Assembly (NCBI GenBank): GCA_030272155.1
Contig: CP126197.1
Coordinates: forward strand, 1,364,001-1,428,000
Direction of reading: 5' to 3'
Length of the DNA: 64,000 nt
From: Tetradesmus obliquus
Lineage: Eukaryota; Chlorophyta; Chlorophyceae; Sphaeropleales; Scenedesmaceae
Shown: positions 13,610 to 64,000 of the stretch, in pieces
Position numbering within the stretch: the stretch's first letter is position 1
How the letters are laid out: each line of letters opens with the position of its first letter
Made by a program: the position numbers and the translations under genes
The notes under the pieces: generated by a model
What the model saw: only the letters and a program-made list of their open reading frames with translations
The model's database searches: none
Told to the model about the DNA's origin: nothing

Positions 13610-16291
13610 TTAGAACCGCAGCTTGCTCGGCAAGCACACAAACTGCCCCGGACCAAGCGGCGCCGGCGGTGCAGAAGGCGCATCTCCTTGCACACGGGAG
13701 CTTCCATCTGCTGCTGCTGCTGCAGCAGGCGCAGCTGCAGGCCCAAGGTCTGTTACCCCAGGGTAATACAGATCTGGGTTTTCGTCCGCCTGCCGCCGCC
13801 GCTGCTGCTGCCGGTCTCCGAAGCTGGTGCTTGCTGGCGTTCTGCCTGACACATCAGAGTCTGCAGGGTCATACGCCGATTGCAGCGGCCGCCGCCCTGT
13901 TGCTGCTGCTGCTGCTGCAGGTGCTGCAGCTGCTGCTGGTCTGCTGACCGGCCAAAACATCGGCCACCTCACCGGTGCTGCTGCTGCTGCTGCTGGCGGC
14001 CGCGGCGGCGGTGCCGCTGCTGCTGCTGCTGCTGCTGGTGGTGGTGCTGCTGGCTGCGCCTGGCGCGCTGCTCCAGCAGTCCCAGTCAGAGGCATGGGGC
14101 GCCGATCTGCAGCAGCTGCTGGTGGCGGTACTGCAACCAGGCCAGGTGCCGCTGCTGCTGATGATGATGTTTCTGAGGGAGCAGCTGTTACTAGTGGTGC
14201 TGGCGTTGGTGCTGCTGCTGCCGCTTCAGTAACTACTGCTGCTGGCACTGTGGATCTGGTTGCTGCTGCTGCTGCTGCTGGCCCCAGCAGAGGCTGAATG
14301 CCTGCCTGGCCCTTACGCAGTGTCTCATACAGGTACCACACCCAAGCCTGCAAACATGCAGAAAGACAAAGCACGCCGACAGGCAAATACAGCAGCGTGT
14401 TGCAGCATGAACACACAGGGATGCAGCAGCGTGCAGGTTTCAAACAGGTACCACACCCCAGCCTGCAAATATGCAGCAGCACGAAGCATACCGGCAGGCA
14501 ACTGAGCAGCATGTTGCAGCATGAAGGTATGCAGCAGCGTGTAGGGAAAGCTGGGTGGTACAGCTGTGCTGCAGGTAAAAGAGCAACCAGAACTTGCATA
14601 GCAGCGTTGCAACCACCACTGTATGCACCTCAAGCAGGCATTGGTTTGAATGATATGGTTTAACAAGAAGGCAGTTAACAGATTCCGCCCACCACCAACA
14701 AGAGTGCAAACTGATATGCGTACCTCAGGCAGTCCTGGGTGGCAGTAGTGGCTGCAGTCCAGCTGCTATTGCATTTGAAGCCAGAGTATATAGAAGCACA
14801 CATCATTCATGCCAAAATCCGTACGATGCTAGATGCTAAAATGCTAAAATGCTAAAATGCTGAAATCCATACCTCCGGCAGCCCTGGGTGGCAGTAGTGG
14901 CTGCAGTCCAGCACCGTAGTGAAGCGGCCGGCCGGGTGGTTGTCGTGCAGCATCACACTCATGTTGAAGCCTGCAGATATAATAGGCAGATCGTACCTGC
15001 AAGGATTGCACAGCACACAGCAGTACAGCACAGCACATGTAGTGTGAGTTGCTTGGCTACAAACTTCCTTTTGTTGGTTGTTGTGCAGTAGCAGACTCAT
15101 GTTGAAGCCTGCAGAGATGATGGGCAGGTCGTACCTGCAAGGATTGCACCACAATGCACCCCAGCACAGCATGGTGAGTGCTGGGTCTAGCAACTGCATC
15201 TGAGGCCTTGACATGCACTTGTGCTCTGTCTCTCTGCTTCAAAGTTGTTCACAAGCTTAAATATTCTCAAACACTCACAGCTTTGTGCAGCTATTCCCCA
15301 AACCGTGTGGTTGCACGTTCCGGGCCTGCTGCTCGTGCTGTAGGCTCTGCCGACACTGCACTCACAGCTCTGGCGGTGTAAACACAGCAGTTGCATGGAA
15401 ACATACTGCTGCAGCACATACACAACTGCTGCCATGACAGTAAGCTGCTGCCCCCGCCGCTGCAGTTGCGGCCAATAGCCCTGTGCTGCTGCCGCTGCTG
15501 CACAGTGCTGTCATCGCCATGGAGCTGCGCCGCTGCTGCTGCACCCCCGGTGCTCAGCTCACTTTGAAAGCACGTAGACAGCAGCCTCCATCAGAGGCGT
15601 CCCAAGTGCCCATTGAGTGCGCTTGTCTGCTGCTGCGGCTGCGCTCATTATCAGCTCGCCGGTTGCTGGAGAGTAAGCATACCCTGCAGGACAGCGCAGC
15701 AGCACAGCGACACAGGTGCAGATACTGTTGGCTGCACTGTTAGTGTAATGCTCCAGCAGCACGACGTTTTCACTGAAGCACAGCTGCCGTCAGCCTGGCT
15801 GCTCTGCTGTTGGTGCTGCGCACCCTGCAGCACCACACACAAGATACGACTGACACCCACAATATACTCTACAGCAAAGTGTACACTCGTATGCACAGCC
15901 TTCGCTGCAAGTGGACAGTGGAAACATATGCCAACCACACCACACACCAGCAGGTTTGTCCCTGCTCACCCTCCACCTCCCAGCACAGTGTACGCACACC
16001 CCTTCATGCAAGTGTTACAGCAGTTACGTCCAATGCTGCCATATACGGCACACTTGCAGGTGTGTCCATGCTCACCTTCCACCTCCCAGCACAGTGCACA
16101 CACAGCCCTTCATGCAAGTGTTACAACAGTCATGTTATATGTTGTCATACATGTGATACGGCACACGATTTGCCAGCAGGTGTGTCCAAGCTCACCCTCC
16201 ACCTCCAGGCACTTCTTGTTGGCTTTGTCTTCTGGGTGAATCGCTGCACTCTGCCGAAACAGTAGGTGCGGCCACTCACCCTTGGTGGACT

Positions 16292-16341
<50 letters not shown>

Positions 16342-19595: not shown

Positions 19596-21602
19596 TCAGG
19601 GTGGCCCCCCAGGGGGTGTGGTGCGTGCCCTGCCCCTGCCCCGGCCCCTAGCAGCACCCCTGGCGCCCCTACCCCTCCCTGCAGGCGACACACCCCTGCC
19701 TGGTGCTGCTGCTGTTGCTGCTGCTGCCGGTGTGCCACTAGCCGCACCAGCAGGCGGCGTGGCAGCAGCAGCAGCAGGGGAGTCGGCGCCAGCTGGCGTG
19801 GCGGCTTCCGCTGCTGCTGCAGCAGCGGCAGCAGCAGCTCCTGCAAGTGCAAACTGAATGGGAGTGTGCTTGCGGCCAGCCCCGCCACCACCACCCTGCG
19901 ACTGCTGCTGCTGCTGTGAATGCAGTGGGCGTGCATTAGGCGAGCGAGGGCCGTCGCCGCCGGTGCTGCTGCTGCGCATTGCCACTGCTGCAGCGCCTGC
20001 GTTGACGTCACTGCTGGCACCTTCCGTTACAGCTGGCGTGTTGGCCGCTGACTGGCGCTTGCGAGCCTTGATGACCTTCTTGGCTGGTGCTGCTGCTGCT
20101 GCTGCTGCTGCCTCCTGCTGCTGCTCAGGGGCCCCTGCAGCATCAGGCTCTGCAGCTGCAGCAGCTGCCGGCTCTGGTGCATCTGCAGCCTGCTGCTGCT
20201 GCTCAGGAGCGTCCTGCTGCATGCTGTCATCATCCCCAGCGGCAGCGGCAGCAGCAGCGGCTTCCTCATCATTGCCTCCACCAGCTGCAAAAAGAAACAT
20301 GTCCAGGGCATCGCCATCATCCGGCTGCCACCTGTCAGTGCCTGCATCACCCTCACCCTGCTCTTCAATAAATGCCGACGCGGCGTCCACGGGGTCCTGC
20401 TGCTGCTGCTGCCGCCGCTGCTGCTGCTGCTGTCCTGTTGCAAGTGCCAACAGTTCATCTAGGGGGTCCTGCTGCTGCTGTGCCGCGTCCTCAAGCTTCT
20501 GTGTAGCCTCCAGCACTGCTTCACCCTCCTCATCAGCTGCAGCGGCAGCAGCAGTAGCAGCAGTGTCCTCGCCAAGGTCGTCACTGCCGCCTGGCATATC
20601 CTCCTCATCATCCTCGTCATCACCTACATCCTGCGTCTGCTGCTGCTGCTCTGCATCAGCAGCAGCTCCAGCGTCACCAGCTGCAGCTGCTGCTGCTGCG
20701 GCTGCTGCTTCGTCTGCAGGCTCCTCATTGAGTGCTGCTTCTGGTGCCGGGGAGGTGCCCTGAGGGGCAGCAGCAGCAGCATCTTCACCATCCTCTGCAA
20801 CATAACCAGTAGCAGCAGCAGCGGCGGCGGCAGCAGATAGTGAGGCAACCGGCAAAGCAGGTAGTCGCATAGCTGCCGCAGCAACGTGCACCACGGCAGT
20901 GCACCACTGCATCCAGCTGCCACCACAACTGCGCTAGGCCAACATACGCCGAGCGCTGCTATCGGCAAGCTGACGGTGGTTTACTCTCTGGCCGGCTTGG
21001 CATGACCTTGTAAACACTCCAGCTCAAATCACCATGCTGTTGTCATTGGCAGGTAGATCAGCAACGGACCCAAACCAACCCAAACTCAATTCTACAATAC
21101 CCAGCCCGTGTGCCATACCTTCCATGGCCTCGGCCCCAGCCTCCTCCTCTTCACCCTCCTCCTGGCCCTGCTGCTGGTCCTCACCCTCCTCACCATCCCC
21201 TGCAGCCTCCTGTGCTAGGCTCTGCTGCTGCTCAGCCTGCTCTGCAGCAGCATCCTGCTCCTCTTGCTGCTGCTGCTGCTGCTGTGCATGTTCCTCAGCT
21301 GCAGCTGCATCACCCTCAGAGGGCATGTCCTCATCCTCCTCATCCTGCTGCTGCTCCTCCTCTTCCTCCTCCTGCTGCTGCTGCTGCTCATCCTCACCCT
21401 GCTGCTGCTGCTCCTCTGCACTCGGTACTTCCCCATCCTCCCTGCCAGCATCCTCACCCTGCTGCTGCTGCTGATCTGCAGCTGCTGCTGCTGCAGCAGC
21501 GTCCTGCTGCTCTGGCTGCGCAGATGCTGCCCTGCCCCTGTCCCCGCCTGTCTCATCTCCATCCAGCAAGCCTGCAAGCTCATCCTCTTCTTCTTGAGCC
21601 GC

Positions 21603-21646
<44 letters not shown>

Positions 21647-24600
21647 CAGCCTGCTGCTGCTGCTCAGCAACCTCCCCTTCCTCCTCAAACTCTTCCTCCT
21701 CACCCTCCTCTTCAGCACCAGCAGCAGCATCTTGCTGTTGCTGCTGCTCTGTAGCAGCAGCAGCAGCAGCATTGGCTGGCTCCTGGGTGTCCACATCCAT
21801 GCCTTCAGCAGCAGCAGCAGCTGCTGCAGCAGGCTCCTCTGCTGGCTGCTGCTCCGGCTCAGCTTGCTGCTGCTGCTGTTGTGCTGCACCAGGCTGCACG
21901 CGTGCACGCTTAGCAGCCGGCTGCACAGCAGCAGGAGATGCAGCAGCCACAGGAGGAGCTGCTGCTGCTGCTGCAGCAGCAGCTTCTGGCTGCTGTGCTG
22001 ACTCTGCAGCTTCTGTGGGTGCAGCAGCTCCTGCAGCACCTTCGGAGGCTTCTGCCTTGATCTTGCGCTTGGCTGCTGGCTTAGGCGGCGCCTGCTGTTG
22101 CTGCTGCTGCTGCTGCTGGGGTGCTGCTGCCTGCTGTGCGGCTGCTTTGCCTGGGGTGTAATCGGCTGCACCTGCACGAAGCTTTGGCGCTGCTGCTGCT
22201 GCTGCTGCTGCTGGGGCTGCTGCTGCTGGGGCTGCTGCTGCTGCTGGCAGCAGCACGTCTGCTCCTGCACGCACAGCAGCCAGCATGGATTCATACTGTG
22301 CTACCTGCTGCTTCAGCACCTCCAACTGCTGCCGCAGCTGCTGCACCTCCTGCTGCTGCTTCGCCAGCTGCTGCTTGGCTGCCGCCGCAGCGCGCTGCAG
22401 CTGCTGCTGCTGCTGCTGTTGTGCTGTTGCCAGCTTCTGCTGCAGCTCCTGAGCCTCCTTTGCTGCTGCTGCTGCCTTTTCCCGCTCCTCCTTGAGCTGT
22501 TTGCCGAGGTTGCCCCTGCCTGCTGCCAGCTGCTTCTCTGCTTCTTCTTTCCCAGCTGCTGCTGCCGCCAGCTGGCCCTTGAGCTCCTCCAGCTCCTGTT
22601 TGACAAAATAACAGAAATAACAAGATGACAACATAAGATACAGTTATGATCAGAGGGCAACGCACTGCAGCGGGATGCTACGAAGCACGGGGAAAGCAAC
22701 AGACAGCTGTGGAGCACTGCATGTCTGGAACCGGTTGCTGCACTTCATGGGCCGTTCACCATCCCAGGATGCAAAAAAGCAATAACCGCAGATCCAGCAG
22801 TGCAACAGCAGCTTGCTGGCACGTGACACCTTTGCATGCAGCCTGCCTGCGCACCTTCTTAGCTGCCTCATTCTCGCGCTTGAGCCTGCCGGCAATGGCC
22901 TGCAGCTGCTTCTGCTGCGGTGCTGCGGCAGTGCTGGCGCTGCTGGCTGCTGCCTGCGCTGCCTGCAGCGCTGCCTGTGCCTCCTCCAGCTGCTTCTGCA
23001 GGTGGCAAAGACGTCACACATGCGCAGATGCAGAGCACAGAGAACACAATGTCAGCAGGCGGCGAAACATGTAAAAGTCCCTGCAGCGCTGCTTCTGTAG
23101 GTGGCAAAAACAGATGGACAGGCGCAGCACAGCAAACAGAGTTTCAGCAGATGGGACGTGAAGGACGGTAACATGACTGCATGCTGTTGACTGGGAATTA
23201 AGAATCACTGGAGTCATTTCTTGTGGCGCCGCACCGCACCTGCAGCTGTGCCTTTGTTTATCCTCGCTGGTATAAAGACCGTCAGCATGGCTTGTGAACA
23301 TTCAAGCCGAGCGTATGAAAGTCAAGTGGCCATCCTACTAGCGCTGTTTGTGCCGCACCTGCAGCTCTGCCTTTCACAATGCCTGTGTTATTGGCAGCCA
23401 TGAGATCCATCTCCAGAGAAGAAGAATATAAAAATGCATGTATCATCATGTTAGTTCCTTGTTGCCGCATCGCACCTGCAGCTCTGCCTTCTCCTTGACC
23501 ATGTCTTTGTTCTTGGCCTGGATCTTCTTGGCCGTGTTGGTGTTGTTGCGGTGCATGTTCTGCAGCGACTCGTGCTTGGCCTGCAGCTCAGCCAGTGATG
23601 CCTTTGATGCCTCCAGCTCAGATGACGATGCCTCGGCGGCAGCCTGGCAGCAGCAGCAGCAGCAGCAGCAGGTGGTTGAGCCAATGACGCTTCTTGACTC
23701 TTGTTGAGGCCGCTGACCTGGCGTCGCTCACCAGCCAGCGCCCGCTGCCCTGACTCAGCCTGCTTCCAGCAGCAGACCAAACTCCGCTGTGCACAGCCAC
23801 ACACGCACCCTCTGGCCTCACACACAGCTCACAGCACTGCATACCCAAGTGCACATGCCGGCAGCTCAGCCTGACCCCTGCCCCCGCCAACTCCCAATCA
23901 ACGACATTGAATAGTCGGCTCACCTGCGCCTCAGCCAGCTGCTGCTTCAGGCCCTCTTGGACCTTGCTCAGGCCGCTGACCTGGCGCCGCTCTGCAGCCA
24001 GCGCGTCAGCCCCAGCCCTGCCCCACCCCTGCCCCTGCGTTGCCTCTCCCTCAAAGCCTCACCTGTGCCTCAGCCAGCTGCTGCTTCAGCGCCTCTTGTG
24101 CCCTGCTCAGGCCGCTGACCTGGCGCCGCTCAGCAGCAAGCGCCCGCTGCGCTGACTCAGCCTGCTTCTGCAGCTCAGCCAGAGCAGAGGCCTTGGCTGC
24201 TGCCTCAGCTGCTGCAGCTGCGGCCTCCTGCTGTGCTGCTGAGAGCTGCTCGAGCGCTGACGCGTGGTCGGCCTGCAAGAGGAGAGGGAAAAAGCAGGTG
24301 TGATGCGTGGCGCAGCGGTGCACGAGGAGTCAGAAAGGCACAGGCTGCGGAAAGCTGCTCGAGCGCTGACGCGTGGTCGGCCTGCAAGGGGTGGCAAGTG
24401 TGATGTGCAGCAGCGGTGTATACATGTGATTCGCAAGGCGAAGGCATGCAGAAAAACGACATAGCACGGTCGCAACGCACAGCGTGCAGTCACCACGGCC
24501 AGTCACAACACAAGTATGTCCGCTGGCATCAGGCTCAGCAGCAGCAGCACCACAGCTGGGCGCGTCTGCAGGCCCTTGTAAAGCTTTGCTGGCAAACATG

Positions 24601-26234
24601 ACAGGGCGCACCTACTTGTTGCAGTCTCCCCGCACCCACACCCACCCACACGCACAAGCGCACCTGCAGGCTCTCGTACAGCGCCTTGTCCACCGCCTGG
24701 TGCTTGCATGCAAAAGGCCAGCAGAGGAACACAGCATGTAGCATCCCGCACACATCAACTCACTTCTTGCTGTCCCCCACCCAAACACACAATCACACCT
24801 GCAGGCTCTCGTACAGCGCCTTGTCCACCGCCTGGTGCTTGCGAGCAAGCAGCCAGCAGAGGCACAAACCATGTAGCATACCCACTCCAATCAACTCACT
24901 TCTTGCAGCCCCTTCCCCAAACACAGTCGCACCTGCAGGCTCTCGTACAGCGCCTTGTCCACCGCCTGGTGCTTGCGCGTGAGGTGTGTGGCCTGGCGCT
25001 CCCAGGTGTCAGCCTGGCGCTTGGCCAGCTCCAGCTCACCCTTCGAGGCCTGCAGCGCGGCCTCCAGCTCACTACAAAGATACACAAGAAACACATGATT
25101 GTAAATCAGTCACATGGGAGTGTCATGTGGCGCTTGGCCAGCTCCAGCTCGCCCTTGGAGGCCTGCAGCGCAGCCTCCAGCTCACTGCAGCAAGATACAC
25201 ATAGCAGGCAAAAAGTTGCTGAGAGCGGTGGTGGAGGGCTGGAGTAGTGAGAAAGCAGCATGGCGCTTGGGCAGCTCCAGCTCACCCCGTGAGGCCTGCA
25301 TCGCGGCCTCCAGCTCGCTGCGAAGATACAACATATTCACAAATAGGAATGTTAATCAGTCATGTGGGAGTGTCATGTGGCGCTTGGCCAGCTCCAGCTC
25401 ACTACAACAGGGACATACAAGCAGTGCAGAATGTCGGTGGTAGCGTTGGTGAAACAGTTGAATGGTGCTGCGGCAGCTCCAGCTCACTCCGAGAGGCCTG
25501 TAGCGCTGCCCCCAGCTCGCTGCAGAATGCATGTTTAACACACAGGAGACAAGCGGTAAAGTCGGTGGCAGTGATGGTTGAAGGGCTGTGAGGCGCTTGG
25601 CCAGCCCCAGCTCGCCATATGAGGCCTGCAGCGCGGCCCCCAGCTCACTGGTTGGTAGACAAAAACAGAAACAGGCACAAGAATTGATGGTGGAAAAGAA
25701 ACGTGAGGGAGGAGCCGTGCGGCAACGCTGACTGCAGAGAGGACGCAGCCACCTGATGGCTTGTGTGCCTGTACGCAGCTGCATGTGCTCTCTGAGGTGG
25801 CAACCCTGACCGTTCAACCAACAGCCAACAACAGCACATTGCTCGAGGCCCAGCATACAGCGTGCCAGCCAAGCTGCCTTTCGCCTTTGTGAGGGACGCG
25901 CCAGCCGTGCTCACCTCACGCGCGCCTGCATGGGCGCTAGCGAGTGCTGCAGCTGCGGCAGGCGCACACAACTTCTGCACACTCGCAGGCAACAACAACA
26001 CACGCGCACGCGCACAACACAATACATCAGGCTGCAGGCCTTGAGGAGGCCAGCAGTGCTCACCTCACGCGCGCCTGCATGGGGGCCAGCGAGTGTTGCA
26101 GCTGCCGCAGCTGTGCACGTGCTGCATCTGCTGCTGCTGCCGCCTTCTGCTCCATCTGGATCAGCTGCACGTTGGCGGTGTCTTGTGCCACCAGCTTGCT
26201 GCGCAGCTGCTCCAGCTCACGCACCTGTGCAGCA

Positions 26235-26274
<40 letters not shown>

Positions 26275-27215
26275 GCAGGCGGTGAGGCAATGAAGCCACA
26301 GCGGATGTGTAGCATTGAGTCTGCTGATGCACAGGATCAGGATGCTCGTCACAAGTTGTGCGGTACTGACGCGTTGCCACGCACTCGTACAGAGGCAGCA
26401 TAAGCAAGCATGCACGCACGTAGCTTCATCTGCATCATGCTTGATCCAAAACAGCCGCCCGGCAGCCGCATTGCAAGCATCTCACCGCTTCCCCGCTGTC
26501 GCGCTCCAGGCGTGTAACCTGCCCATGCAGTTCAGCCACCATTGCATTGGCAGCCGCCAGCTGCCAAGACTGAAACAGCAGTGAAATACACATCTCATCA
26601 ACAATCACAAGCATCTCACCGCTTCGCCGCTGTCGCGCTCCAAGCGTGTGACTTGTCCATGCAGCTCCGCCACCATCGCATTGGCAGTCGCCAGCTGCTG
26701 CAATGACACCCAAAAACCTTATACACCAACATAAAATTCAAGTCAAATGTAAGATGAAATCTCACCGCCTCGCCGCTGTCGCGCTCCAAGCGTGTAACCT
26801 GCCCATGCAGTTCCGCCACCATCGCATTGGCAGCCGCCAGCTGCCGCGCCTGCATGTCGCGCAGCCGCCCTGCGGCAGCGGCTTCGGCCTGCGCTTCCTG
26901 CCGCATGCGGTCTGCTGCCTGTGCGCGCTGCGTGGCTTGCTCCAGGGCCTTCACCACTGCCTCGGCTGCAGCAACAGCAGCACAGGCACAGGCACAGCAA
27001 TTGAGCGGTGTGCACGTGTGAGTAAAGTGGATGACTGTACGTACCTTGTGTATACATATTCAAGAGTAGTGTGGCTGTCGGTGCGTGCAGCCACTGTGCA
27101 GAAGCGGCAGCGTTTTCGATGCGCAGGATCCCCAGCAATGCATTGCGCTTAAGATGCTCACTGAACTGCGCCGCGACGCTGACCTGGCAACACAGGCTGC
27201 ATGCACTTGAAACAC
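19596..27215 (-). other. TPR exons 23-31 (coordinates and acidic poly-Q tail)
   Basis: Exons 27045-27215 (start chosen by phase, the least certain), 26766-26965, 26064-26224, 24933-25071, 24063-24272, 23476-23643, 22855-22995, 21119-22595, 19596-20794. The two last exons (1,477 and 1,199 nt) are unlike the other, short ones. They encode the low-complexity tail, rich in Q, A, E and D, with runs of up to about 15 glutamines coded mostly by CAG. The stop is at 19596-19598 after a Gly-Arg-rich end. Confidence 0.75.
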
Positions 27216-30282: not shown

Positions 30283-30314
<32 letters not shown>

Positions 30315-46664: not shown

Positions 46665-46703
<39 letters not shown>

Positions 46704-47254: not shown

Positions 47255-47490
47255 GGGTTTTAATGCTGGAGTGCTTTCGGTGGCGCTGGCTGCGAAGTGG
47301 GTGACTGGCATGCTGTGTAGCTGGGCGCTGATCGCACCTGCGATGTTCCCTGACAGGGACTTTTGCTTGTAAGCGTTTAAGGCCGAAGTGTTTTTGGTGG
47401 CGCTGGCTGCGAAGTGGGTGACTGGCCTGCTGTGTAGCTGGGCGCTGATCGCACCTGCGATGTTCCCTGACAAGAACTTTGGCTTTTGAT
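45128..47490. repeat. Splice-junction duplications in SERINC
   Basis: 45128-45180 repeats the 5' part of exon 3, and 45517-45600 repeats its 3' part with donor. 46240-46290 repeats the 3' end of exon 4. Three copies (starting near 46471, 46583 and 46705, about 110-120 bp each) repeat the CTG tract, acceptor and first ~24 codons of exon 5. Two copies (about 47280-47370 and 47395-47490) repeat the last coding segment after the stop codon. Confidence 0.85.
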
Positions 47491-52225: not shown

Positions 52226-55200
52226 CAAACTTGATGGAGGGCATCGCCAGGCTTGCAGGCACGCCCTGCCAGGTGGCACCAGCAGGCACAGTCTCCCCCT
52301 TCATCACCTGCACACAGGCAGATAGGCAGACAACAGCGGGAGAGGTTGATCAGCTCATCGTATACGAACCTTACGGTGACAGTCGCATTGCAGTATGACG
52401 CAGTGTGGCACCAGCCGGCACCGTCTCGCCCTTCATGGCCTGCACACCAACAAACAGATCACAGCACCGGAGGTTCCTCAGGTGGCTCAGGTTGCCTGAT
52501 GTCCCCAACCCCACTCACCAGTGACATCTCCCGCAACGTGGCGTGCTCCTCCATGGCCGCATCCGGCAGCACCGCAAGCATGTGAAGGCCCAACAGCGCA
52601 CTAGACTGGCTGATGCACAGGCAACAGCAATCCCGGGCTTGTAGTAATAGGCTCACCAGCATCATGATGCCGCAGGGCGTGTTGCTGCAAACAAGGGTGT
52701 GCATTGTGCTCTACGGTGCTCACTCTCCTTTTCTGGTCTCAGACCATGTGTTCTTGTTGTGGCTCATACCATCTAAGATGGTTCCAGGACCCACATGTAA
52801 CTATGAGTGAGTGAGTGACTACCCAGGCCGCTCTGCAGCTCCTGGGTAAGTTAAGGCTAAGAGGGTGTGTATGGCCAGGGGCAGCGCCCCTGGGCTCCAC
52901 ACCCTCTACCTGTCCACTTGCGCCCTAGGGCACAAGCGGGGTGTATCGCTGTCGTGCGCTCATCTAAACCGTGGCTTTTTGCGGTGGTCTGGCTCGCCGG
53001 TGCCGTGCTTTCGTTTCTTTGCGGGGTTTGGGTTTGGCTGTGCTGGTCTTGCGCCCGTACGTTTCCTTGCTGCCGTCATGATCGCCTTACGTTGCCTCCA
53101 TATCTTCTGCATGTTGGTCACCGCTGAGAAGTGCAGTTTCTTTGCCAGTGTTGCTAATCGTGGTCCTTCTACCCCTAGTTGGTGTTCCATTGTGTCTATT
53201 GTCTCCTTGTATATCACCCCAGTCACCCCTAGTAGAATCGGCGCAACTGTAATTCTGCAGTCTGGGTCGTGTGTAGCAAACAGCTCTCTCAGCGCGGCAT
53301 GCTGGTCCTGTGCGCGTTGCCGCTGGGGTTCTGGGTCTGTGTCTTTGCAGTATTTGATCTCTGCAATGACGTAATTCATCTGACTGCTCATGCCGTCCAT
53401 CTTCTGCATCAGAATGTCAGGGATGCTGCCTGTGTAGGCTTGCAGTGCACTGCGCAGAGCTGGGGGCATGTTTGTGGGGAGGTCAGTGTCTCGCAGGTAG
53501 CGGTTACATGGCAGGCGTGCTGGGACTTCGCCGTCTGGCCACCGTCTTCGGATGCCCACGTCTGTCAGCAAAATAGCACTAGCGCCTGAGCTTTTGTATA
53601 TTGCTTCCACAATCAGGGACCCTGCTGCATTGTGGCGGCCGGTGACAGTAGTAGATAGCCTAGGGCATCCGCTGATGGCATGGTGGCAGCTGTCTGTGTC
53701 GCCACACCTGAGGGGGCACATGGGACTCTTTACCACATACATGTAACTATCCCCTCTCAAACATAGCAGCACCCGATGCTCCCTTGCTCTGTGCTACCCA
53801 CATTGCCTGCCACATGCAACCGCCAAACACATGTACAACAGCTCACCAGTGACATCTCGCGCAGCGTGGCGTAGTCCTCCATCGCAGCGTCCGGCAGCAC
53901 TGCGGACAGCGCGCCAATCGTGACCTGCTTGCCGATCGTGATGGGCCGAACCTTGACGTGGCGAGCCTCCACTGTGTGTGTCAGCAGGAACGCTCCGTCT
54001 CCGATGACAGTGCCGTCTCCAATGGTGACCTGGTGGTATTCAGCCAGCACACGCCGGTCAAAATAGAAAAGAAAGAGGCAGGTTGAGGCAGGCAAGTTAA
54101 GGCAGGCAGGTTTTGAACCTATGCAATTGGTACGTGTATGCAGGGCAGTGAACGGGCAAAACAAAATGCAGACATCGTAATGTTGGATCTGGTAGGTGAC
54201 ATGCATCACAACTCAAAGCCAGCAACTTTGCAGGAAGGCACACGGCTGCAGGGCCGAGCCAGGCGCTGGCTAAGCATGCATGATGAACGATCCGCGTGCT
54301 CTCCATTGACAGCTTCGGGATGCAGCTGCATCACTTAGGGACGGCTAGGGACAATATAGGCACAGGTTAGGGATGCGTGCCTCGCCACAGTGTCCGATGC
54401 TGACCATGTAACACCATGTAACACGGCATGTAACACCTCTATCTATCTATGACAGTTGTGTCTCCAATGCTGACCTGGTAACACCATGTAACACCATGTA
54501 ACAACCACTATCTATCTATGACAGTTGTGTCTCTCATGCTGACCTGGTCGTACTCTGCCACCACGCCGCCCAGGCAGAAGACATCCTTGCCCACTGTGCT
54601 GCCCATGGCGCGCAGGTACCAGTTGTACAGCTGCACAGGCAAACAGGCAGGCAGGCAGGCAGGCAGACACATGTTCGCCCCATCTTCAATCTTTTTCTAG
54701 GCAGAAGACGTCCTTGCCCACTGTGCTGCCCATTGCGCGCAGGTACCAGTTGTACAGCTGCAGACAAACAGGCGGGATGGGAGGGGAAGCAGCACGGGCA
54801 GCCAGGGCAACATGACATCAGAATAAGCAAAAATGCTACAAATCTGCCCAGGCAGAAGACATCCTTGCCTACTGTGCTGCCCATGGCGCGCAGGTACCAG
54901 TTGTACAGCTGCAGACAAACAGGCGGGATGGGAGGGGAAAAAGCAGGGCAGCCAGGGCAATATCTGACATCAGATTCTGATGATCAGAATAGGCAAAATG
55001 CTACAAATCCACCCGTGCAGAAGACATCCTTGCTTACTGTGCTGCCAATGGCTCGCAGGTACCGAGCTGTGCAGCTGCAGGCATGCACAAGGCAGGCAGA
55101 CAGGTTGGGGCAGGCGGTTTGAGGTAGGCAAAAGAGAAAGACACGTGTAGGCAGGGGGGGGGGGCAGGCACCAGTTGTACAGCTGCAGGCATGGAAGAAA

Positions 55201-57990
55201 AGGCCGGGTTGGGGCAGGCAGGCGGGTTGAGGTAGGCAAACAGGGAATGGCACTGTAGCCACTGTAGGTAGGGCAGCAAATGGGGATCGCAAGGCACGTT
55301 GAGGGCATCTGGCGGTCTGCAGCAGAACCATGCTGCCTGCACACTGGCCTGAAAAGACTTCGCCAGGCCCAGCATGTGATTGGTTCTCTCTCACACAATC
55401 ATGTCCACAGCAGACACGCACCAGTGAGCCCTTGAACCCGTTGAAGTCCGCGTACAGGTGCACGTTGATGCACAGCAGCTGTCAACACGCCGCGCTCACC
55501 CCAACATCCTAAACAATTGGAATTGCTACTGCCAATGTGTACAAACGCACAATGCACTCACCAGTGAGCCCTTGAAGCCGTTGAAGTCCGCGTACAGGTG
55601 CGCGTTGATGCACAGCAGCTGCCCCCCCCCCCCCCCAACATCCCTAAACAATTGGAATTGCTACTGCCAATGCACAATGCACTCACCAGTGAGCCCTTGA
55701 AGCCGTTGAAGTCTGCGTACAGGTGCGCGTTGATGCACAGCAGCTGCCAGCACGCCGCGCCCACGCTCTTGAAGATGGGCCGCATCCCGGCACTGTTGGG
55801 CATCAGCAGCCACTTCAAGCCTGCCAGGTACGCCAGGAACACGCTGAAGCCAAACACCAGGAAGAACGGCGCCCAGGCAGCTCCCAAAAAGTAGCCGTAA
55901 TGGAAGAGCACGTAGAAGCCAAGGATTGCGGCTGGCAGACTCATCATGGAAGTGGTTGTCACGAAGATGGTGTTGGAGAAGGCGATGTACAGCACGTTGT
56001 AGAGGGCGTACTGCCAGCGGGGAAGCAGGCGGGAGGCCGCGGACTCAAACTTGCCGGAGGCAAGGCCGGCCTCCACGTCAGCACCTGCACCGCCAGCCCT
56101 GCAGAGTAATTGAAAAAGGCACACCAGATGCATTTGAACGTCTGTGATTGGTTCAAGATGTTGTACAACGCGTACTGCCAGGTGAGCAGCAGGCGGGATG
56201 CAGCTGCCTCGCACTTGCCGCCTCTACATCAGCGCCTGCGCCAAACCCCCTGCAGCAGATGAAACTACACAATACACATAGCCACGCCAGTGTATCACCT
56301 GGTGTTTGGGTCCAGCAGAGAGGCTGATGACCAGCATAAAGCTGCAAACTATAAGCTTATTGAGCTATGAATCGGTGCAAAGCTTAAACCAACAAAAAAC
56401 TTCCCCCAGTCGACAGCAGGGGCAGCAGTGCCACCTCAGCTTGAAGCCCTGCATGGTGTTGGAATGATCCTCACAGTGCTGCCCAGCAACTCAGTGTGCC
56501 AAAACCTACAGAAGCTTGTTTAGACCGCCAGCTGTTGCCTGACTCTCACCTCAGCTTGAAGCTGCCCAGGGTGATGGAGTAGTCCTCGAAATGCTGATCA
56601 GCAACTCAAAACTGTCAAAAGCTGCAAAGCTTGCTGAAGCAAGATGCATTTTCACATCCTCACCTGATTTTGAATCCTCCCAGGGTGATGGAGTAGTCCT
56701 GAAATTGCTGTTCAGCAACTCAAACTGTCAAAAGCTGCAACAGCTTGCTGCAGCAACATGCATCATCATATCCTCACCTCAGCTTGAATCCTCCCAGGGT
56801 GATGGACTAGTCCTCAAAGTGCTGGTCAGCAATTGTTAAGGCCAAAACACTGCCAAAGTGTGTTCTTAATGTACATTGCTGCCTCATGCTCACCTCAGCT
56901 TGAAGCCTCCCAGGGTGATGGAGTAGTCCTCAAAGTGCTGGTCGGGTGCGCCATAAGTGAACACGCCCAGGCAGGCGTTCTTGCCCACTGTGGTGCCTGG
57001 CAGCAGCGTGCAGTCGTTTGTGACGTCACAGGCCTCTCCCAGCACGACTGGGGCGGTGCGGCCAGAGGTAGCTCCAATGACAGTGACCATGCTGCAGGCA
57101 GGCGACAAAAAGGTTGGCAAACCACTCTTAGTGTTTGAATGTTGCAGGAGCCACACACGCCTCCCTAAGCACCACGGGGGCTGTGCGGCCAGGCGTGGCA
57201 CCAAAGACGGCCACCATGCAGCAGGTGGGAAGCAGTCAGTCAGAATCAAAGGTTTCAGAACAACAGTTGCCGATGTCAGCTGTTTGCGATGAGGCACATG
57301 CCTCTCCCAGCACCACAGGGGCGGGGCGGCCTGAGGTAGCTCCAATGACAGTGATCATGCTGCACTCAAGTCAGGTGGACAGTGTGGGCAGGCAGGAAAC
57401 CCAGGTGTAAATGCACACTAGTTCATATGATCTGTTTGCAGGACGCCACAGGCCCCTCCCAGCACCACTCAAGCGGTGCGGCCAGGCGAAGCGCGCATGA
57501 TTTGTGACCATGCTGCAGGCAGGCAGGCAGGCAGGCAGTAATACTACAGCGGCACACACAGATACCAAAGCACCATGAACTGGCAACTCCCTGGCAGCAG
57601 CCTCACCTGCACATGCTCGCAGTGTCCTCCACATAGAACAGCTCAAACTAGCTGCAGCGCAGACGGCCGCCTCCATGACAGTGCATGCCAGGCGTTTTCG
57701 CCGCACGTACCCTGTTTACAGGAAGAAAACAAGCTGTCAGCTTTTGGCGGCAGCGTTACCTGCACATGCTCGCGGTGTCCTCCACTTGAAAGAGCTCAAA
57801 CTCGCTGCAGCGGAACATTTCACTGAGCCAGCACTGCCGGCCAATCTTGGCCCCCAGCGCCCGCAGCCAGGCGTTGTAGATCTCTGTGGAGGTGAACTGC
57901 CAGATGATGGACTGGAAGGGGCCAGCAATGAGGCACTTGAAGAGGTGGCGGCGCCATGCCAGCCACAGCCCGCCTGTTAGTTAAGCAGGA

Positions 57991-58073
<83 letters not shown>

Positions 58074-58350
58074 TCAGGGGGATGGATGGATCAATGCGCA
58101 TACATTCATGTGATAATGCAGTTGCAACGCCAATTTTTTTGGGTGCTGGTGAACTGCCAGATGATGGACTGGAAGGGGCCGGCGATGAGGCACTTGAACA
58201 GGTGGCGGCGCCATGCCAGCCACAGCCCGCCTGTTTGTTCAGCAGGTGCAGCATTGTGGGCATCAGCCGCAACAGCAAGAGCAGCAGCAGCAGCAGCAGC
58301 AGTAGCTGTGTTGGTTTGGGCGGCGGTAGGGCAGCATGACCAAAGCAGCT

Positions 58351-58398
<48 letters not shown>

Positions 58399-61300
58399 CG
58401 CAACACGCAGCTTGCGGCACGGCTCACCGTTCTTCATCTTCTCTTCGGTCGTGTGTGGCACCAGCAGCCACTTCAGCGGGATCATGCTCCACATGTAGAT
58501 GGTAGATGACACAAAGGCCGCGCCAGGAGCAATGAGCATCGAAAAGGCCATTGTCCACCAGAGCTTGTGGCAAGTGTCATAGATTGGGCCGCTGCTGCCG
58601 AGGCCTTCGGTGTAAGCACCGCCGATCCAGCAGGTGCGGGAAGCAATGATGACGTCGTGCCAGCTGTCGTAGTGCTGGCCCACAAACATCTCCACAAACT
58701 TGAGCCTGCACAAAGGTCACAAGAGATGCACGAAAGTACGTTATGCATATCACCAGCCTCAGGTTTAAAGCTGTGGCATCCAGCTGCCGTAGTGCTGGCC
58801 CACAAGCGTCTCCACAAAAAAGAGCCTGCATAGGCAGCAGAGGTGCATAGTTGTTACGTTACGTGACACACTCCACTCAACCAGGGAGTGGAAACCCCCA
58901 TCCAGAGCCAACGAAAGGCTCATAGTTGCTCCATGTGAGACTGAATCGACTTACTGATGAGGTTGCAGGTGGTGGCGACAAGCTTGCAGACTGATGCCTG
59001 GTCAACGCTGCAGTTCAACCCCAAACTATTGAAGTTTGCCACTAACCCTCCAGTATTCAAACCCTGATCGCCTCACCAGATGAGGATGCTGGGCACGATG
59101 CCCAGCCAGGCGAAGGGCTGGCAAACAAACAACTGATCAAACAAACCCTAAACGTACAACAAAACTAAAACACCCTATACCCTGAACTCTAAGCAGCTCA
59201 CCAGAGGTGCATTGGATGTACAGCTTGTTGCACACGTTTCTAGCTCAGCATGGGTTTGTTGTTGTGTGGTAGGGTCTTAATGGGCATGGCCAGCCTAAAC
59301 CCTTAGATTTGACCCCCGAACCCCACATATCAGAACTCTAAGCAGCTCACCAGATGAGGATGCTTGGCACGATGCCCAGCCAGGCGAAGGACGACACGAA
59401 GACCAGCAGCAGCACCGTGGCCATGCACAGCCACAGCGGCAGAACCTCGTGCTCGTTGCGCACCCTGGCATGCGCCTCCGCATCTGTTGTTTGGCCATGC
59501 AAAAAGCAGTAGCAAAAGCAGCAGATGTTCAGTTTACTGGCAAGGACAGCCCATCACGCTTGCTGTGCACCCTGGCGTGCCTCTCAGGTCTGTGGCGGTG
59601 TGTGCAAAAAGTGGTAAAGCAGGCAGCAGCACATTGTTGGGTGCCTGCAGTTGCAGCACAGTGGCCATGCACAGCCACAGGTGCAGCACCTCGTGCTCGC
59701 TGCGCACCCTGGCATGCGCCTCGGCATCTATAAAGATGCACAACAAGTTGTGGCAAGGCAGCATCACAAGCAGCAGAAGATGTTATTAGTTTGGGTGGCA
59801 AGTTGACTTGCAGATGCAGCACCTCGTGCTTGCTGCGCACCCTGGCATGCGCCTCCGCATCTGTTGTTTGGCCATGCAAAAAAGCAGCAGCAAAAGCAGC
59901 AGATGTTCAGTTTGCTGGCAGGGACAGCCCATCACGCTTGCTGCACACCCTGGCGTGCCTCTTGGGTCTGTGGCGGTGTGTGGAAATAGTGGCAAAACAG
60001 GCAGCATCACATTGTTGGGTGCCTGCAGTTGCAGCAGCACCGTGGCCACGCACAGCCACAGCGGCAGCACCTCATGCTCGCTGCGCACCCTGGCATGCGC
60101 CTGCGCATCTGTGGAGGATTGGCCAGAAGTGGAAGCAACAAAAGACAGTCTGTTAGTATGGTGGTCCGGTCGACTTGCAGGTGCAGCACATTGTGCTCGC
60201 TGCGCACCCTGGCATGCGCCTTGGCATCTGTACAGATGCACAACATGTTGTGGCAAGGCAGCATCACAAGCAGCAGAAGATCTGATTAGTTTGGGTGGCA
60301 AGTTGACTTGCAGGTGCAGCACCTCGTGCTTGCTGCGCACCCTGGCATGCGCCTCCGCATCTGTTGTTTGGCCATGCAAAAAAGCAGCAGCAAAAGCAGC
60401 AGATGTTCAGTTTGCTGGCAGGGACAGCCCATCACGGTTGCTGCACACCCTGGCGTGCCTCTTGGGTCTGTGGCGGTGTGTGGAAATAGTGGCAAAACAG
60501 GCAGCAGCACATTGTTGGGTGCCTGCAGTTGCAGCACAGTGGCCATGCACAGCCACAGGTGCAGCACCTCGTGCTCGCTGCGCACCCTGGCATGTGCCTG
60601 CGCATCTGTGGAGGCTTGGCCAGAAGTGGAAGCAACAAAAGACAGTCTGTTAGTATGGTGGTCCAGTCGACTTGCAGGTGCAGCACATTGTGCTCGCTGC
60701 GCACCCTGGCATGCGCCTTGGCATCTGCACAGATGCACAACATGTTGTGGCAAGGCAGCATCACAAGCAGCAGAAGATCTGATTAGTTTGGGTGGCTAGT
60801 TGACTGCAGGTGCAGCACCTCGTGCTCGCTGCGCACCCTGGCGTGCGCCTCAGCATCTGTGGAGCACAAGGCAGAAGTAGAAGCAGCAAAAGACAGTCTG
60901 TTAGTATGGTGGTCTGTTTGACTTGCAGGTGCAGCACCGTGTGCTCGCAGCGCACCCTGGCAGGCGTTGCGGCATCTGCTGCGGCGTGTGCTTTAAGCAG
61001 TAATACAAGCAGCTGCAATACAAGCAGCAGCAGCGGGTTGTGTGAGTTGCTGGTGCGTGGCAGAAGGCCACACTGCAAGGGCAGCTGTTGCACTAGCTAT
61101 CTTCAGCACCATCAGTTGTTCTGCAGCCTATTATTCACACATGCTCGTGCCTCCACCTGAGGGCCCTGCAGGCAGGCGCTGCGAGATGGTGCGGGGGCGT
61201 CAACATGCAGCCATCAGGCATCATTGGCGCATACCTCACACCCTGGCAACACACCCTCTCAGCAACCAGATAAATGTGGCTGGCGCAGCTCAACACACCT

Positions 61301-63754
61301 GTCAACACACCTGACTGCCTGTCACAGTGTCGCCTAGTGAACAGCTTGGCAGAGCTGCAGCTGCAGACCTCAGACCAACATGAGCAGCAATGCAGCAGCC
61401 CTGTTTACCACAAGCATACGCGACCTTTCACCTGAGGGCCCTGCAGGCAGGCGCTGCGAGGTCGTGCCTGGCGTCATGATGAAGCCATCAGGCACCGCAG
61501 TGCCATGGCTGGCGATGCTGGTGGGCATCATGGTCACTCCCTTGCCGATCTTCACGCGGCCCACAACCTGCAAGCAAGGTTGCAGAAAAGGCATTTCAAT
61601 GACATGACATAGCACAGCGCCGGGTGATGCTGGTGGGCATCATGGTCACTCCCTTACCGATCTTCACGCGGCCCACAACCTGCAAGCAAGGTTGCAAAAA
61701 GGCATTTCAATGACATGACATAACACAGCCGGGGGATGCTGGTAGGCATCATGGTCACTCCCTTGCCGATCTTCACGCGGCCCACAACGTGCAGCACATA
61801 ACAAACAACAGCAGTTTGTTGTCAGCAGGAACGCAGAAAGGCATCGCCGTGCGGTGTGAGTTCATGCTGGTGGTCACCATAGCCGCAATTGCGCCGATGT
61901 TCACGTGGCCGACCTGAGCACAAAGCGAGCACGAAGTGGGCATACAGTGTTGTTTGTAGGATATCTCAGGGCGTGCACATTAGGCAAGTGTGTTTCCTGC
62001 TAGACAGGTTGCACCACAACAAGTGACACTATAGCCTTCGTGGTGTGGCCGCCTCAGGCTCAAGTTAGTGTGCTCTTGATGATCAGCATAGGCAGTATCA
62101 ACAGCCAATTGTTGGCTGCATGCAGCGTGTGCATTGCTCACCATGGTGCCCCTGCCTCCCGGCTCCGCTGCTGCGTGGAAGCTGGAGCCGTCAATGAAGG
62201 AGTCAGCCTCGATGACTGGAGCAGCAGCAGCAGCAGCAGCAGCGTGCAAATTGACGTGGGTATCCTTGCTGCGTGGCATCTGGAGGATGCAATGCAAGCG
62301 TGCAGCAGCAGTGGCACCAACAAGGAGGTAGCCGCGCGGAAGTCAAGCGCACAACACGGCCGCCCGTCACAAACACTGCAGCCAAACGTCTCTCCTGGGG
62401 GCTGTTATCAACAAAGAGCACAACTAATAAAATGCATAGCGCTATCAGCCACCCACCTGTGTTGTCTCCAATCTCCACCATGTCCCAATCTCCAATGTTT
62501 GGCGAGTCGATCGCCACATTCCTCCCAATCTTGCAGCCCAGGGCGCGCAGGTACCACACAAACATGGGCGTCCTCCGCACCAGCACGTAGATGTATGACA
62601 GGCTGAACCTCACTGTGCTTCGCACCAGCCACCACTTGACATAATACAGGCTCCATATGGCGCGTGTGCCGGGCTTCTGCCTGCCCAGCAGGGCCCACTT
62701 GAAGGCCACTGACCAGGCCAGCAGGGTGAACATGCCGCCGGTGGCCAGGGTGAACGCGTAGAGCGGTACCAACAGGATATGCGGACGCCGCAGCGCAAAC
62801 AGGTACACAGCCTGCAACCAAATACAGCCAGCAGAGCAGGGCAGCACAGCAGCAAGGCAGCATTAGCAGCGGCCAAAGGTTTGTTGTTAGGTCTGCCCAG
62901 CAGGGCCCATTTGAAGGCCACTGACCAGGCCAGTAGGGTGAACACGCCTCCGGTGGCGAGGCAGAAGGCGTAGAGCGGTACCAGCAGGATGACCGGACGC
63001 CGCAGCGCAAACAGGCACACAGCCTGCAAAAGAGAACGAAAAGGACAGAGCAAGGCAGCACAACAGCATCAGCAGGAGCAAAAGCAGTCGAGTTTAGCCT
63101 GCACTGTAGCCCCCACCTGAACGCGATGGATCACTCTAGAATGTTGCCTCACCTTCACAAATCAACCAGCATCTCACCTCCAGGAGGCCGCATGCGAGAT
63201 GGATTAGCCCATCATGCCTAGCAGGACCAGCCCGCCAGCCTGCAGCTGCATGGTCTTGCAAGCACCAAACTTCTGCAATCACATTATGAATGACACATTG
63301 AACGTGACATAGCGTAACATGTGACATGTCACACTCGCCTCCAGGAAGCCGCAGGCGATGACGTATCCCAGCATTCCCAGCAGGAACAGCCCACCAAACT
63401 GCAGCGCAGTCGCCAGCCACACCGGCAGCGCCCTGCTGCCAAATCCTTGACTCCCATAGCCTCCATCCTCCTCTTCTTTGAAGCATGGCAGCTCGCCAAA
63501 CCCTCCACCTCCAGCAGCAGCAGCAGCAGCAGCAGACTGGCCCATGCTTGCCCAGCCTTTGTTGCACAGGCTGTTGCGGCTGTCTGCGCTGCGGTCTGCT
63601 GCTGTGGAAAAGCTGTTTTGGTAGCAGGATCCGGCCCCAATCATGCTGAAGCTCCCCTGGCGGGAGGCGACGTCTGTGAAGGCATACTTGCCGCATTGGG
63701 ATTCGATGGCGGCTGCCATTGCCGTTACAGTTGAATGCTGGTAGATCAGCAGGC
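52218..63754 (-). CDS. Pls/PosA-type NRPS-like protein, C-terminal membrane/LbH region (5' end outside window)
   Basis: Exons: 63339-63754 (starts in phase, preceding exons beyond the window), 62457-62811, 62142-62215, 61432-61567, 59351-59483, 58428-58705, 57760-57973, 56894-57091, 55687-56098, 54544-54630, 53847-54029, 52218-52307. Phases close at all 11 junctions, giving about 858 residues. Several hydrophobic pairs of helices alternate with left-handed beta-helix hexapeptide segments: GCKIGRNVAIDSP...IGDNTVIE, then VKIGKGVTM, then VIGATSGRTAPVVLG, and finally VTIGDGTVIGDGAFL with the end VMKGETVPAGATWQGVPA. This layout matches the terminal domain of Pls/epsilon-poly-lysine-synthetase-type NRPS-like enzymes (TIGR02353-like), normally preceded by adenylation and carrier domains. 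Those, if present, lie beyond 64000. The product is unknown. It could instead be a stand-alone acetyltransferase-like protein. Confidence 0.8.
52405..52570. repeat. Partial copies of the last two NRPS-like exons
   Basis: 52405-52445 repeats the AG plus 5' part of the final exon (AMKGETVPAGAT reading) just upstream of it. 52518-52570 repeats the 3' end of exon 53847-54029 (DAAMEEHATLREMSL) with its donor, downstream of the intact copy. The LINE insertion separates the latter from its source. Confidence 0.8.
52805..53738 (-). mobile_element. 5'-truncated LINE with restriction-like endonuclease-type C-terminus
   Basis: The element is flanked by a perfect 12-bp duplication, ACATGTAACTAT (52793-52804 and 53739-53750). 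On the minus strand it ends in an ACTC-type tail next to the first copy. The retained ORF (stop near 52960) has a CPLRCG...H...GC zinc-knuckle-like motif followed by PDI...EIKYC. That looks like a PD-(D/E)xK core, as in LINEs with a C-terminal endonuclease, and the ORF ends in a basic KKRKH tail. The 3' UTR holds the hairpin CCAGGGGC/GCCCCTGG. It lies in the last intron of the NRPS-like gene in the sense direction. The reverse transcriptase part is missing, so it is a dead copy. Confidence 0.8.
54685..55210. repeat. Four 5'-part copies of NRPS-like exon 54544-54630
   Basis: Copies near 54700-54770, 54850-54915, 55015-55085 and a short one near 55165-55190 contain the acceptor and the LYNWYLRAMGSTVGKDVF-like start, with GGCAGG-rich spacers. 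All lie upstream of the intact exon in the sense direction. Some have drifted (RAIGSTVSKDVFC). Confidence 0.85.
55421..57680. repeat. Junction copies around exons 55687-56098, 56894-57091 and 57760-57973
   Basis: 55421-55480 and 55557-55620 repeat the 3' end and donor of exon 55687-56098 (INAHLYADFNGFKGSL), and 56155-56260 repeats its 5' part. Four copies (about 56430-56810) repeat the 3' end of exon 56894-57091 (SITLGGFKLR), and three copies (57135-57530) repeat its 5' part. About 57595-57680 repeats the 3' end of exon 57760-57973 (ELF-VEDTASMC). A C16 run sits at 55622-55637 beside one copy. Confidence 0.8.
57993..58240. repeat. (CAG)~26 tract plus 5'-part copy of exon 57760-57973
   Basis: 57993-58071 is a long CAG run (CTG on the sense strand) just upstream of the acceptor of exon 57760-57973. 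Further upstream, about 58150-58240 is a well-preserved copy of that exon's first ~33 codons (GLWLAWRRHLFKCLIAGPFQ). It runs out into non-coding sequence without a donor. Confidence 0.85.
58866..58924 (-). mobile_element. Diverged copy of the CCACTC-hairpin non-LTR-type fragment
   Basis: It matches the body of the 6689-6777 and 10674-10803 elements (GAGCCTTTCGTTGGCTC and a CCACTC...GAGTGG hairpin). Next to it lies a degenerate GTAAC-type tail (about 58855-58865). It sits in an intron of the NRPS-like gene. Confidence 0.5.
59351..60975. repeat. Array of about nine (plus three diverged) 5'-part copies of exon 59351-59483
   Basis: The intact exon reads DAEAHARVRNEHEVLPLW and continues into a membrane helix. 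Its first ~17 codons recur near 59677, 59808, 60057, 60170, 60308, 60552, 60674, 60805 and 60925, with weaker ones near 59550, 59930 and 60430. Spacing alternates between about 120 and 250 bp inside a higher-order unit of about 490-500 bp. Only the downstream-most copy continues into the helix and has a donor. Confidence 0.85.
61620..61916. repeat. Three 5'-part copies of NRPS-like exon 61432-61567
   Basis: Copies near 61630-61682 and 61740-61790 keep the VVGRVKIGKGVTMMPTS-like start. The one at about 61870-61916 has drifted (VGHVNIGAIAAMVTT). All lie upstream of the intact exon. Confidence 0.85.
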
Positions 63755-64000
63755 CTGCAGCACAAACAAATAAATCTTGAAGTTACATGGCATCAGGCAT
63801 GGCCTGTGAATGCGTACTTGCCGCATTGGGATTCGATGGCGGCAGCCATGGCTGTTACTGTGGAGTGCTGGTAGATCAGCAGGCCTGCAGTATAACAAAT
63901 AAATCTTGAAGTTAAATGGCATCAGGCATGGTCTGTGAATGCGTACTTGCCGCATTGGGATTCGATGGCGGCGGCCATGGCTGTTACTGTAGAGTGGTGG
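62890..64000. repeat. Junction copies at the upstream edge of the NRPS-like region
   Basis: 62890-63026 duplicates the first ~45 codons of exon 62457-62811 (AVCLFALRRP...FKWALLGR) with acceptor but no donor. About 63177-63245 repeats the 3' end of exon 63339-63754 with a normal GT donor. About 63790-63890 and 63910-64000 repeat that exon's 5' part (LLIYQHSTVTAMAAAIESQCGKYAF). Confidence 0.8.

Follow-up and report, generated by a model that had tools for sequence, protein, structure and literature searches.

Introners are one known case in which the insertion of new sequence shapes introns. Intron gain can also proceed through tandem duplication of an exon segment bearing AGGT, as set out in the part of that report drawn on here (PMC3443670), and small tandem duplications result when Pol alpha-primase/CST fills in staggered breaks that are then end-joined, according to the portion of a second report considered (PMC8355091). 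In Chlamydomonas and Volvox, tandem repeats are enriched near intron-exon junctions, as described in the section of the survey used here (PMC3887541). Among the open-licence papers listed in literature searches, none was seen to describe junction-centred arrays of ~125-bp units. Such arrays, which place partial copies of exon edges with their splice sites (decoys) in introns, are found in Tetradesmus obliquus, where the phenomenon is real, is spread over a sample of the genome, and is for the most part explained by tandem duplications that geometry and selection have filtered.

The sequence examined amounts to 304 kb of the T. obliquus nuclear genome (104.66 Mb in 17 contigs), comprising the window, a continuous stretch of 64 kb, and 24 loci of 10 kb each taken at round coordinates from the same genome. 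Self-comparison of the window revealed dense direct repeats at a spacing of ~105-155 bp and multiples thereof. Repeats were collected with a diagonal scan (offsets 30-799, low complexity masked), which was used in place of BLAST with a low mismatch penalty and complexity filter because the latter missed most of them; in dinucleotide-resampled copies of four 10-kb loci the scan gave 0 hits. Its yield was 58 arrays for the window, a density of 9.06 per 10 kb, and 78 for the 24 loci (3.25 per 10 kb), or 136 across the 304 kb. Exon and intron models were taken from a self-trained HMM gene finder rather than from the deposited annotation (median exon 144 bp, median intron 304 bp; consensus donor CAG/GTGAGT and acceptor TGCAG/G), and comparison with other proteins covered SERINC, MCM5 and the NRPS-like gene. 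The tract preceding acceptors in the 304-kb sample resembles a CTG/TTG trinucleotide run ending in TGCAG, a place where microsatellite and acceptor signal overlap. Two loci with short-unit arrays and tiny exon parts, L018 and L025, were excluded from the codon-position, spacer-class, spacer-match, array-flank and splice-site-score analyses, and were kept in the positional-rule, exon/spacer identity and array-class counts and among the decoy-bearing junctions.

The SERINC-like gene of the window carries both kinds of decoy, donor-type (copies of an exon's 3' edge) and acceptor-type (copies of its 5' edge):

43911..47252, plus strand: SERINC-like gene, start codon read by eye, PF03348 matching exon by exon
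44413-44661, 45270-45446, 45880-46197 and 46812-47251, plus strand: intact SERINC exons from the HMM models
45108..45184, plus strand: acceptor-type decoy of exon 45270, with (TGC)n-AG and ~55 bp of the exon's 5' part
45518..45591, plus strand: donor-type decoy of exon 45270-45446, with 61 bp of the exon's 3' part and 13 bp of intron
46257..46282, plus strand: donor-type decoy of exon 45880-46197, more diverged
46441..46811, plus strand: three acceptor-type decoy units that precede exon 46812 (period 106-121)
47174..47485, plus strand: 117-bp-period array spanning the stop codon, 2.7 copies in all, that runs into the 3' flank

The decoy at 45108..45184 has a 1-bp deletion and lies 139 bp upstream of its intact copy, and that at 45518..45591 has kept its GT and lies 132 bp downstream. 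In the array at 47174..47485 the first copy is the intact end of the CDS, so that the same geometry appears without any splice site. The intact edges match P0001, P0002, P0004, P0005 and P0010, relatives without the copies; P0002, which has a transcript-like ORF name, is colinear across the SERINC junctions, and P0007 is without 16 residues at one junction.

Decoys are also found along the NRPS-like gene at the end of the window:

53616..64000, minus strand: NRPS-like (Pls/PosA-type) gene, C-terminal part, running past the window
54699..54908, minus strand: acceptor-type decoys of the exon ending at 54630, at distances of 127 and 278
55422..55618, minus strand: two donor-type decoys of exon 55687-56098
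56435..56827, minus strand: four donor-type decoys of exon 56894-57091, period 114-116
57154..57560, minus strand: acceptor-type decoys of the exon ending at 57091, two listed and a third seen by eye
57613..57659, minus strand: donor-type decoy of exon 57766-57973
58143..58230, minus strand: acceptor-type decoy of the exon ending at 57973
59648..60988, minus strand: complex array of acceptor-type decoys of exon 59351-59483 with a 500-bp higher-order duplication
61623..61788, minus strand: two acceptor-type decoys of exon 61432-61567, period 112, the outer with CAC instead of CAG
62893..63023, minus strand: acceptor-type decoy of exon 62457-62811
63788..64000, minus strand: acceptor-type decoy units of exon 63335-63754, period 130

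All four decoys at 56435..56827 have kept AG/GTG, and the nearest contains an in-frame TAG. The decoy at 55562-55618 was miscalled as an exon by the HMM gene finder, and P0121 and P0122 hold one copy only. P0121 is OEZ85_012770 of T. obliquus, from a second assembly, and P0123 is OEZ86_007554, a model of the window's NRPS-like gene; we read the OEZ86 and OEZ85 locus-tag series as two sister strains of T. obliquus. P0121 contains AVCLFALRRPLILLVPLYAFCLATGGVFTLLAW, which matches the decoy at 62893-63029 (AVCLFALRRPV...AFC...GGV) rather than the live exon (AVY...PHI...AFT...GGM), and these decoy-specific residues imply that the decoy exists in the second assembly. P0123 covers part of the gene and includes an extra repeated stretch that resembles a translated decoy. 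On our reading the translated copies in the deposited NRPS-like models of both strains are annotation errors, and decoys thus seem to mislead annotation; if those models are right, decoys are sometimes translated.

The remaining decoys listed individually belong to two further minus-strand genes:

19599..39923, minus strand: long coiled-coil-like gene, with 23 listed decoys at 16 junctions
24664..24831, minus strand: the 33-bp 3' edge of exon 24933-25071 copied twice, both copies called exons by the gene finder
25128..25650, minus strand: four acceptor-type decoys of the exon ending at 25071
33422..33806, minus strand: donor-type decoys of exon 33878-34030
14437..15149, minus strand: decoys of the TBL-like gene, acceptor-type at 14437-14462 and 15075-15108, donor-type at 14724-14763

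The copies at 24664..24831 have an identical exon part and diverged spacers. Gene names had been proposed in a sequence-only reading of the window, and they fare unequally: SERINC is borne out by the PF03348 matches and by 99% identity of the protein to T. obliquus A0A383VJK9, and NRPS-like is confirmed by protein comparison; TBL-like has weak support from a PF13839 match below the cut-off (E 0.0014); and for the gene named TPR the long, coiled-coil-like reading frame stands, the TPR label itself being that reading's alone. Two other predicted minus-strand genes, at 2612-4390 and 8996-12038, consist of whole exons repeated in tandem, many of them 132-144 bp long with a length divisible by three, and encode a repeated LEDRSKAVTNPLLQSAYKKFEAD-like module; the gene at 8996-12038 gave no Pfam match. 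Whole-exon duplication is apparently tolerated in both.

Across the whole window, the scan and HMM models list 51 decoy rows at 36 junctions, a count that includes one row with a 5-bp exon part and takes decoy 55422 twice, its neighbour having been miscalled as an exon; the SERINC copies at 45108 and 46441-46811, found by eye, lie outside these rows. The pattern first described as about 40 copies in four genes is real, the count given here being for the whole window. The 36 junctions correspond to 0.240 of twice the predicted intron count. The 24 loci hold 35 decoy-bearing junctions, or 0.097 of twice the predicted intron count, with at least one in 14/24 loci, which makes the window ~2.5 times richer than the sample. 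Over the 304 kb, 71/472 junctions bear decoys (39 donors and 32 acceptors), with one decoy at 40, two at 19, three at 7 and four at 4, and a single junction with eight, the short-unit array of L025. Extrapolation to the genome gives ~15,300 decoy-bearing junctions (bootstrap 9,200-21,800) and 34,000 arrays (24,900-43,600). The unusually active local duplication proposed for the window holds for the genome sample as well. Long satellite-like arrays of other periods were also seen, at L016 7337-9898 (30), L027 16-6039 (279 and 345) and L015 1-1135 (191 bp), and L029 has two predicted two-exon genes of 404 aa at 1315-3233 and 4997-6915, identical in their first 80 residues and probably a recent tandem gene duplication.

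The earlier description held that copies of an exon's 5' part lie upstream of the intact exon and copies of a 3' part downstream, as products of tandem duplication across junctions, and on both points the larger sample agrees. Among 133 straddling pairs, in which one copy lies across a junction and the other is non-exonic, 126 obey the rule, donor-type copies being downstream in 73/78 and acceptor-type copies upstream in 53/55, which is the order predicted for a tandem duplication, with direct, adjacent copies of which the outer is truncated and the inner is joined to the exon. That the opposite order might prove equally frequent had been considered; in the 304-kb sample only 7/133 pairs show it. 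Three of these seven are miscalled, since they depend on mini-exons (42, 54 and 60 bp) predicted in the coiled-coil gene, each in fact a copy of a neighbouring exon; the other four are at L016, L022, W 4291 and W 15977.

The further claim of the sequence-only reading, that the rule shows one complete exon must survive, is overstated, since the order follows from tandem geometry alone. A tandem copy spanning an acceptor would read intron-edge-intron-edge-rest, with the truncated edge always upstream, and donors would be the mirror image; because the inner copy is always joined to the rest of the exon, the positional order is geometrically inevitable. A toy script encoding both geometries, which serves as illustration and not as independent evidence, returned 1.0 when copies arise in tandem and 0.501 when they are inserted into either of the flanking introns. 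The rule speaks against dispersed insertion and distinguishes tandem from dispersed copying, nothing beyond; it is no evidence of selection, is silent on which exon had to survive, and makes the apparent strictness a case of geometry, not selection. Weak evidence for selection comes from the arrays lying fully within predicted exons, where 7/7 periods are divisible by three (33, 42, 54, 102, 240, 240 and 753), four of the seven being from the single locus L015 and gene prediction favouring open frames.

The repeated unit consists of some 25-90 bp of exon and the adjoining intron, including the splice site, with a nearest-copy period of 123 bp (sd 20) and an exon part of 49 bp (sd 18; n=58). 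The smallest period falls within 95-165 bp in 71/97 junction arrays vs 16/39 others (p = 0.0007), the latter made up of 1/7 exon, 3/8 intron and 12/24 intergenic arrays. Periods leave remainders of 0, 1 and 2 on division by three in 32, 37 and 42 cases, those of the form 3n+2 being seemingly over-represented in the youngest decoys by an eye count, which was given no weight. Period and exon length show no correlation (rho -0.16, p 0.23), and exon-part and spacer lengths are anticorrelated at ~-0.46, a value worked out by hand from three standard deviations and to which the 190-bp cut adds. The homology block ends shortly past the splice site, with a median intron extension of 17 bp for donors and 8 bp for acceptors; repetition of the whole unit is visible in some arrays (61511-61793, 63658-64000), and many nearest pairs have spacers that are diverged or fail to align. 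Arrays touching a junction number 97 vs 8 purely intronic ones, with 43% at junctions when random 125-bp units are placed on repeat-collapsed structures, and we judge this excess to be partly, not wholly, a detection bias, intron-only arrays being harder to detect and junction copies remaining detectable longer since one copy is constrained. What is unusual beyond geometry is how frequent the arrays are, how sharp their period is, how strongly they favour junctions and how well the decoys are preserved.

Recurrent short tandem duplications, tolerated where they cross exon boundaries, have probably left these decoy edges in introns. Short local duplications would arise repeatedly, and those within exons would mostly be removed; a duplication across an exon/intron or stop-codon boundary would leave the intact edge in place by geometry and so be tolerated, adding one decoy. 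Such a decoy would carry a plausible GT or AG, usually with no partner site, and would define no exon, the spliceosome pairing the sites that flank complete exons. Further units would be added by new duplication or unequal exchange, and spacers would decay fast and decoy edges more slowly, the nearest decoy being on average closest to the live exon. Candidates for the step at the DNA level are end joining after staggered breaks have been filled in, and unequal exchange.

Three observations are left unexplained by duplication of a plain neutral kind: the exon part is ~90% identical where the spacer is often unalignable, even in the youngest pairs; junction arrays outnumber intron-only ones; and the period is sharp. 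Nearest real-decoy pairs (n=57) have an identity of 0.896 in the exon part, detection through which biases the pairs toward high exon identity, and 0.613 in the spacer, for which random spacers give a baseline of 0.482 (sd 0.064). Local spacer similarity exceeds z > 3 in 26/58 pairs and, from young to old classes of exon-part similarity, in 8/20, 11/22 and 7/16 (periods >190 and spacers <20 bp omitted); this flat share of alignable spacers suggests that similarity in the exon part reflects more than how long ago the duplication occurred. Past the homology block, z > 3 is reached on the exon side in 2/49 pairs and on the intron side in 14/49 (pairs with >45 bp of intron, spacers <25 bp or a distance >175 omitted), and the above-random similarity of intron side and spacer implies that the unit included intron, which was then lost faster. 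A spacer test of a 'copy plus filler' arrangement gave z > 3 for 11/35 internal and 4/23 terminal spacers of multi-decoy arrays and for 14/37 terminal spacers of single-decoy arrays.

It is possible, though we would not call it probable, that the live edge and its decoys exchange sequence through gene conversion or unequal exchange in the common exon part. Decoys would then stay exon-like as spacers drift, and near-identical decoys would be purged of amino-acid changes, being able to write them into the exon. Consistent with exchange, divergence is two-tiered between decoys too (0.821 in the exon part and 0.649 in the spacer, n=40), and mean identity to the exon is highest for the nearest decoys, at 0.903, 0.872, 0.872 and 0.869 by rank (n = 68, 29, 10 and 4); detection via the exon part inflates its identity, however, and no conversion tract was directly observed. 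Codon-position counts, from the 111/123 decoys left after omitting exon parts <24 bp or not fully inside a predicted exon, bear on the same question. In 28 triples (~503 sites for each copy), polarised changes at positions 1/2/3 number 6/5/36 in the live copy, which is coding-like, and 43/34/43 in the second decoy, which is even, and those in the nearest decoy, at 21/23/44, are intermediate. Among pairs at least 94% identical, position 3 holds 46/61 differences (p = 9e-5 vs the half expected of a neutral decoy), or 41/55 with one decoy per junction (p = 4e-4). This silent excess, as exchange would have it, falls with divergence, to 99/176 (88-94%), 129/269 (80-88%) and 65/141 (below), but position 3 over all identity classes holds 339/647, near half.

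The silent excess of the youngest class is equally compatible with an origin from another allele. Young decoys may have been born from, or be linked to, a different exon allele and display standing silent polymorphism rather than decay, an explanation we put forward tentatively and as an unlikely one. Position-3 differences in young pairs run both ways (17 GC to AT and 17 AT to GC), with older pairs leaning to GC loss (46 to 26 and 89 to 55), and the annotated NRPS-like proteins of the two strains differ in amino acids, both of which fit; the price is that divergence between allelic introns would need to exceed that at silent sites by far. Carrying exchange further, exon edge and intronic ghosts might form one recombining family, fed genome-wide by a ~125-bp junction-centred process, whose decoys would be refreshed from the live exon, might write back, and would be amino-acid-clean while nearly identical. 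We regard this extension as doubtful; were it true, introns would serve as a local reservoir of exon-edge sequence open to selection.

Many decoy donors and acceptors were expected from the first description, and they are found: GT is retained in 56/64 donor decoys and AG in 44/48 acceptor decoys (100/112 in total), and scores exceed the 5th percentile of real sites for 86% of donor decoys and 75% of acceptor ones, detection by similarity across the junction favouring retained sites. Some decoy scores at least as high as the real site at 25/38 donor and 12/31 acceptor junctions. At the cut edge of acceptor-type decoys, donors scoring >0, 2, 4 and 6 occur in 7, 4, 0 and 0 of 38 (null 28, 16, 7 and 2%), and at the cut edge of donor-type decoys, acceptors at the same thresholds occur in 25, 17, 9 and 5 of 60 (null 30, 20, 12 and 5%), a slight excess of weak acceptors (score > 0; p 0.04). 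A reading of the decoys as complete exons was accordingly not supported, their cut edges giving little sign of a partner site, and none beyond chance in acceptor-type decoys. Over residues 2-583, MCM5 in L030 aligns to solved MCM5 across four decoy-bearing junctions, with the intact edges used, and in the genes checked (SERINC, MCM5 and NRPS-like) the exon-flanking sites appear from the alignments to be those used, in keeping with the suggestion that splicing picks the proximal site. Exon definition may be what shields splicing from the decoys.

That the decoys are functional, as alternative exons or regulatory splice sites under selection, is improbable. Retained splice sites, the silent bias of the youngest decoys, the excess of weak acceptors at donor-type cut edges and the translated copies in deposited protein models would each fit, but partner sites are few, second decoys change evenly over codon positions with silent bias in the youngest class only, periods are spread over all three remainders, decoys of conserved genes contain a frameshift and a stop, and the copies are absent from SERINC relatives and solved MCM5. 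Least probable of all is an assembly artefact in which haplotypes or repeats were wrongly placed in tandem, a concern raised at the outset and prompted again by the allele-like youngest pairs, against which stand the many copy ages (identity down to <80%), up to four decoys per junction apart from the one short-unit array, three stretches essentially unique in a genome-wide search that skips very common words (own place and one 72-bp match at 78%), and, answering it in one case, the window decoy 62893-63029 in another assembly's annotated protein.

Should the sample be representative, ~15,000 junctions with a mostly intact decoy GT or AG would constitute a natural large-scale test of how the spliceosome ignores strong sites. 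These arrays, for which recurrent tandem duplication is our preferred reading, differ from introners in that no family common to the loci was seen: 98/116 spacers are unmatched elsewhere in the 304 kb, 39 of them matching nearby only and 59 nothing, and 18/116 match another locus or sequence >1 kb away. Together with the three stretches searched genome-wide, this gives no support to introner-like or mobile-element spacers. The repeat survey, which took in plants as well as green algae, shares with the present case green algae and repeats crowding intron ends; the part of it considered here scanned units of 1-50 bp, a range outside which ~125-bp exon-edge units fell (PMC3887541). Intron gain from AGGT segments, as far as the portion of the report drawn on describes it, is likewise an in-gene tandem duplication whose extra sequence is spliced out, but there the copies become the ends of a new intron, whereas here an existing intron grows with the copied sites inside it (PMC3443670); gain of that type was rejected for these arrays, the cut edges having little partner-site excess and the used SERINC sites lying outside the copies. 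Break fill-in, in the part of its account considered, similarly leaves short direct copies beside their source, there from complementary overhangs (PMC8355091), whereas in T. obliquus the period is sharply set at ~125 bp, splice junctions are preferred, and the copies accumulate.
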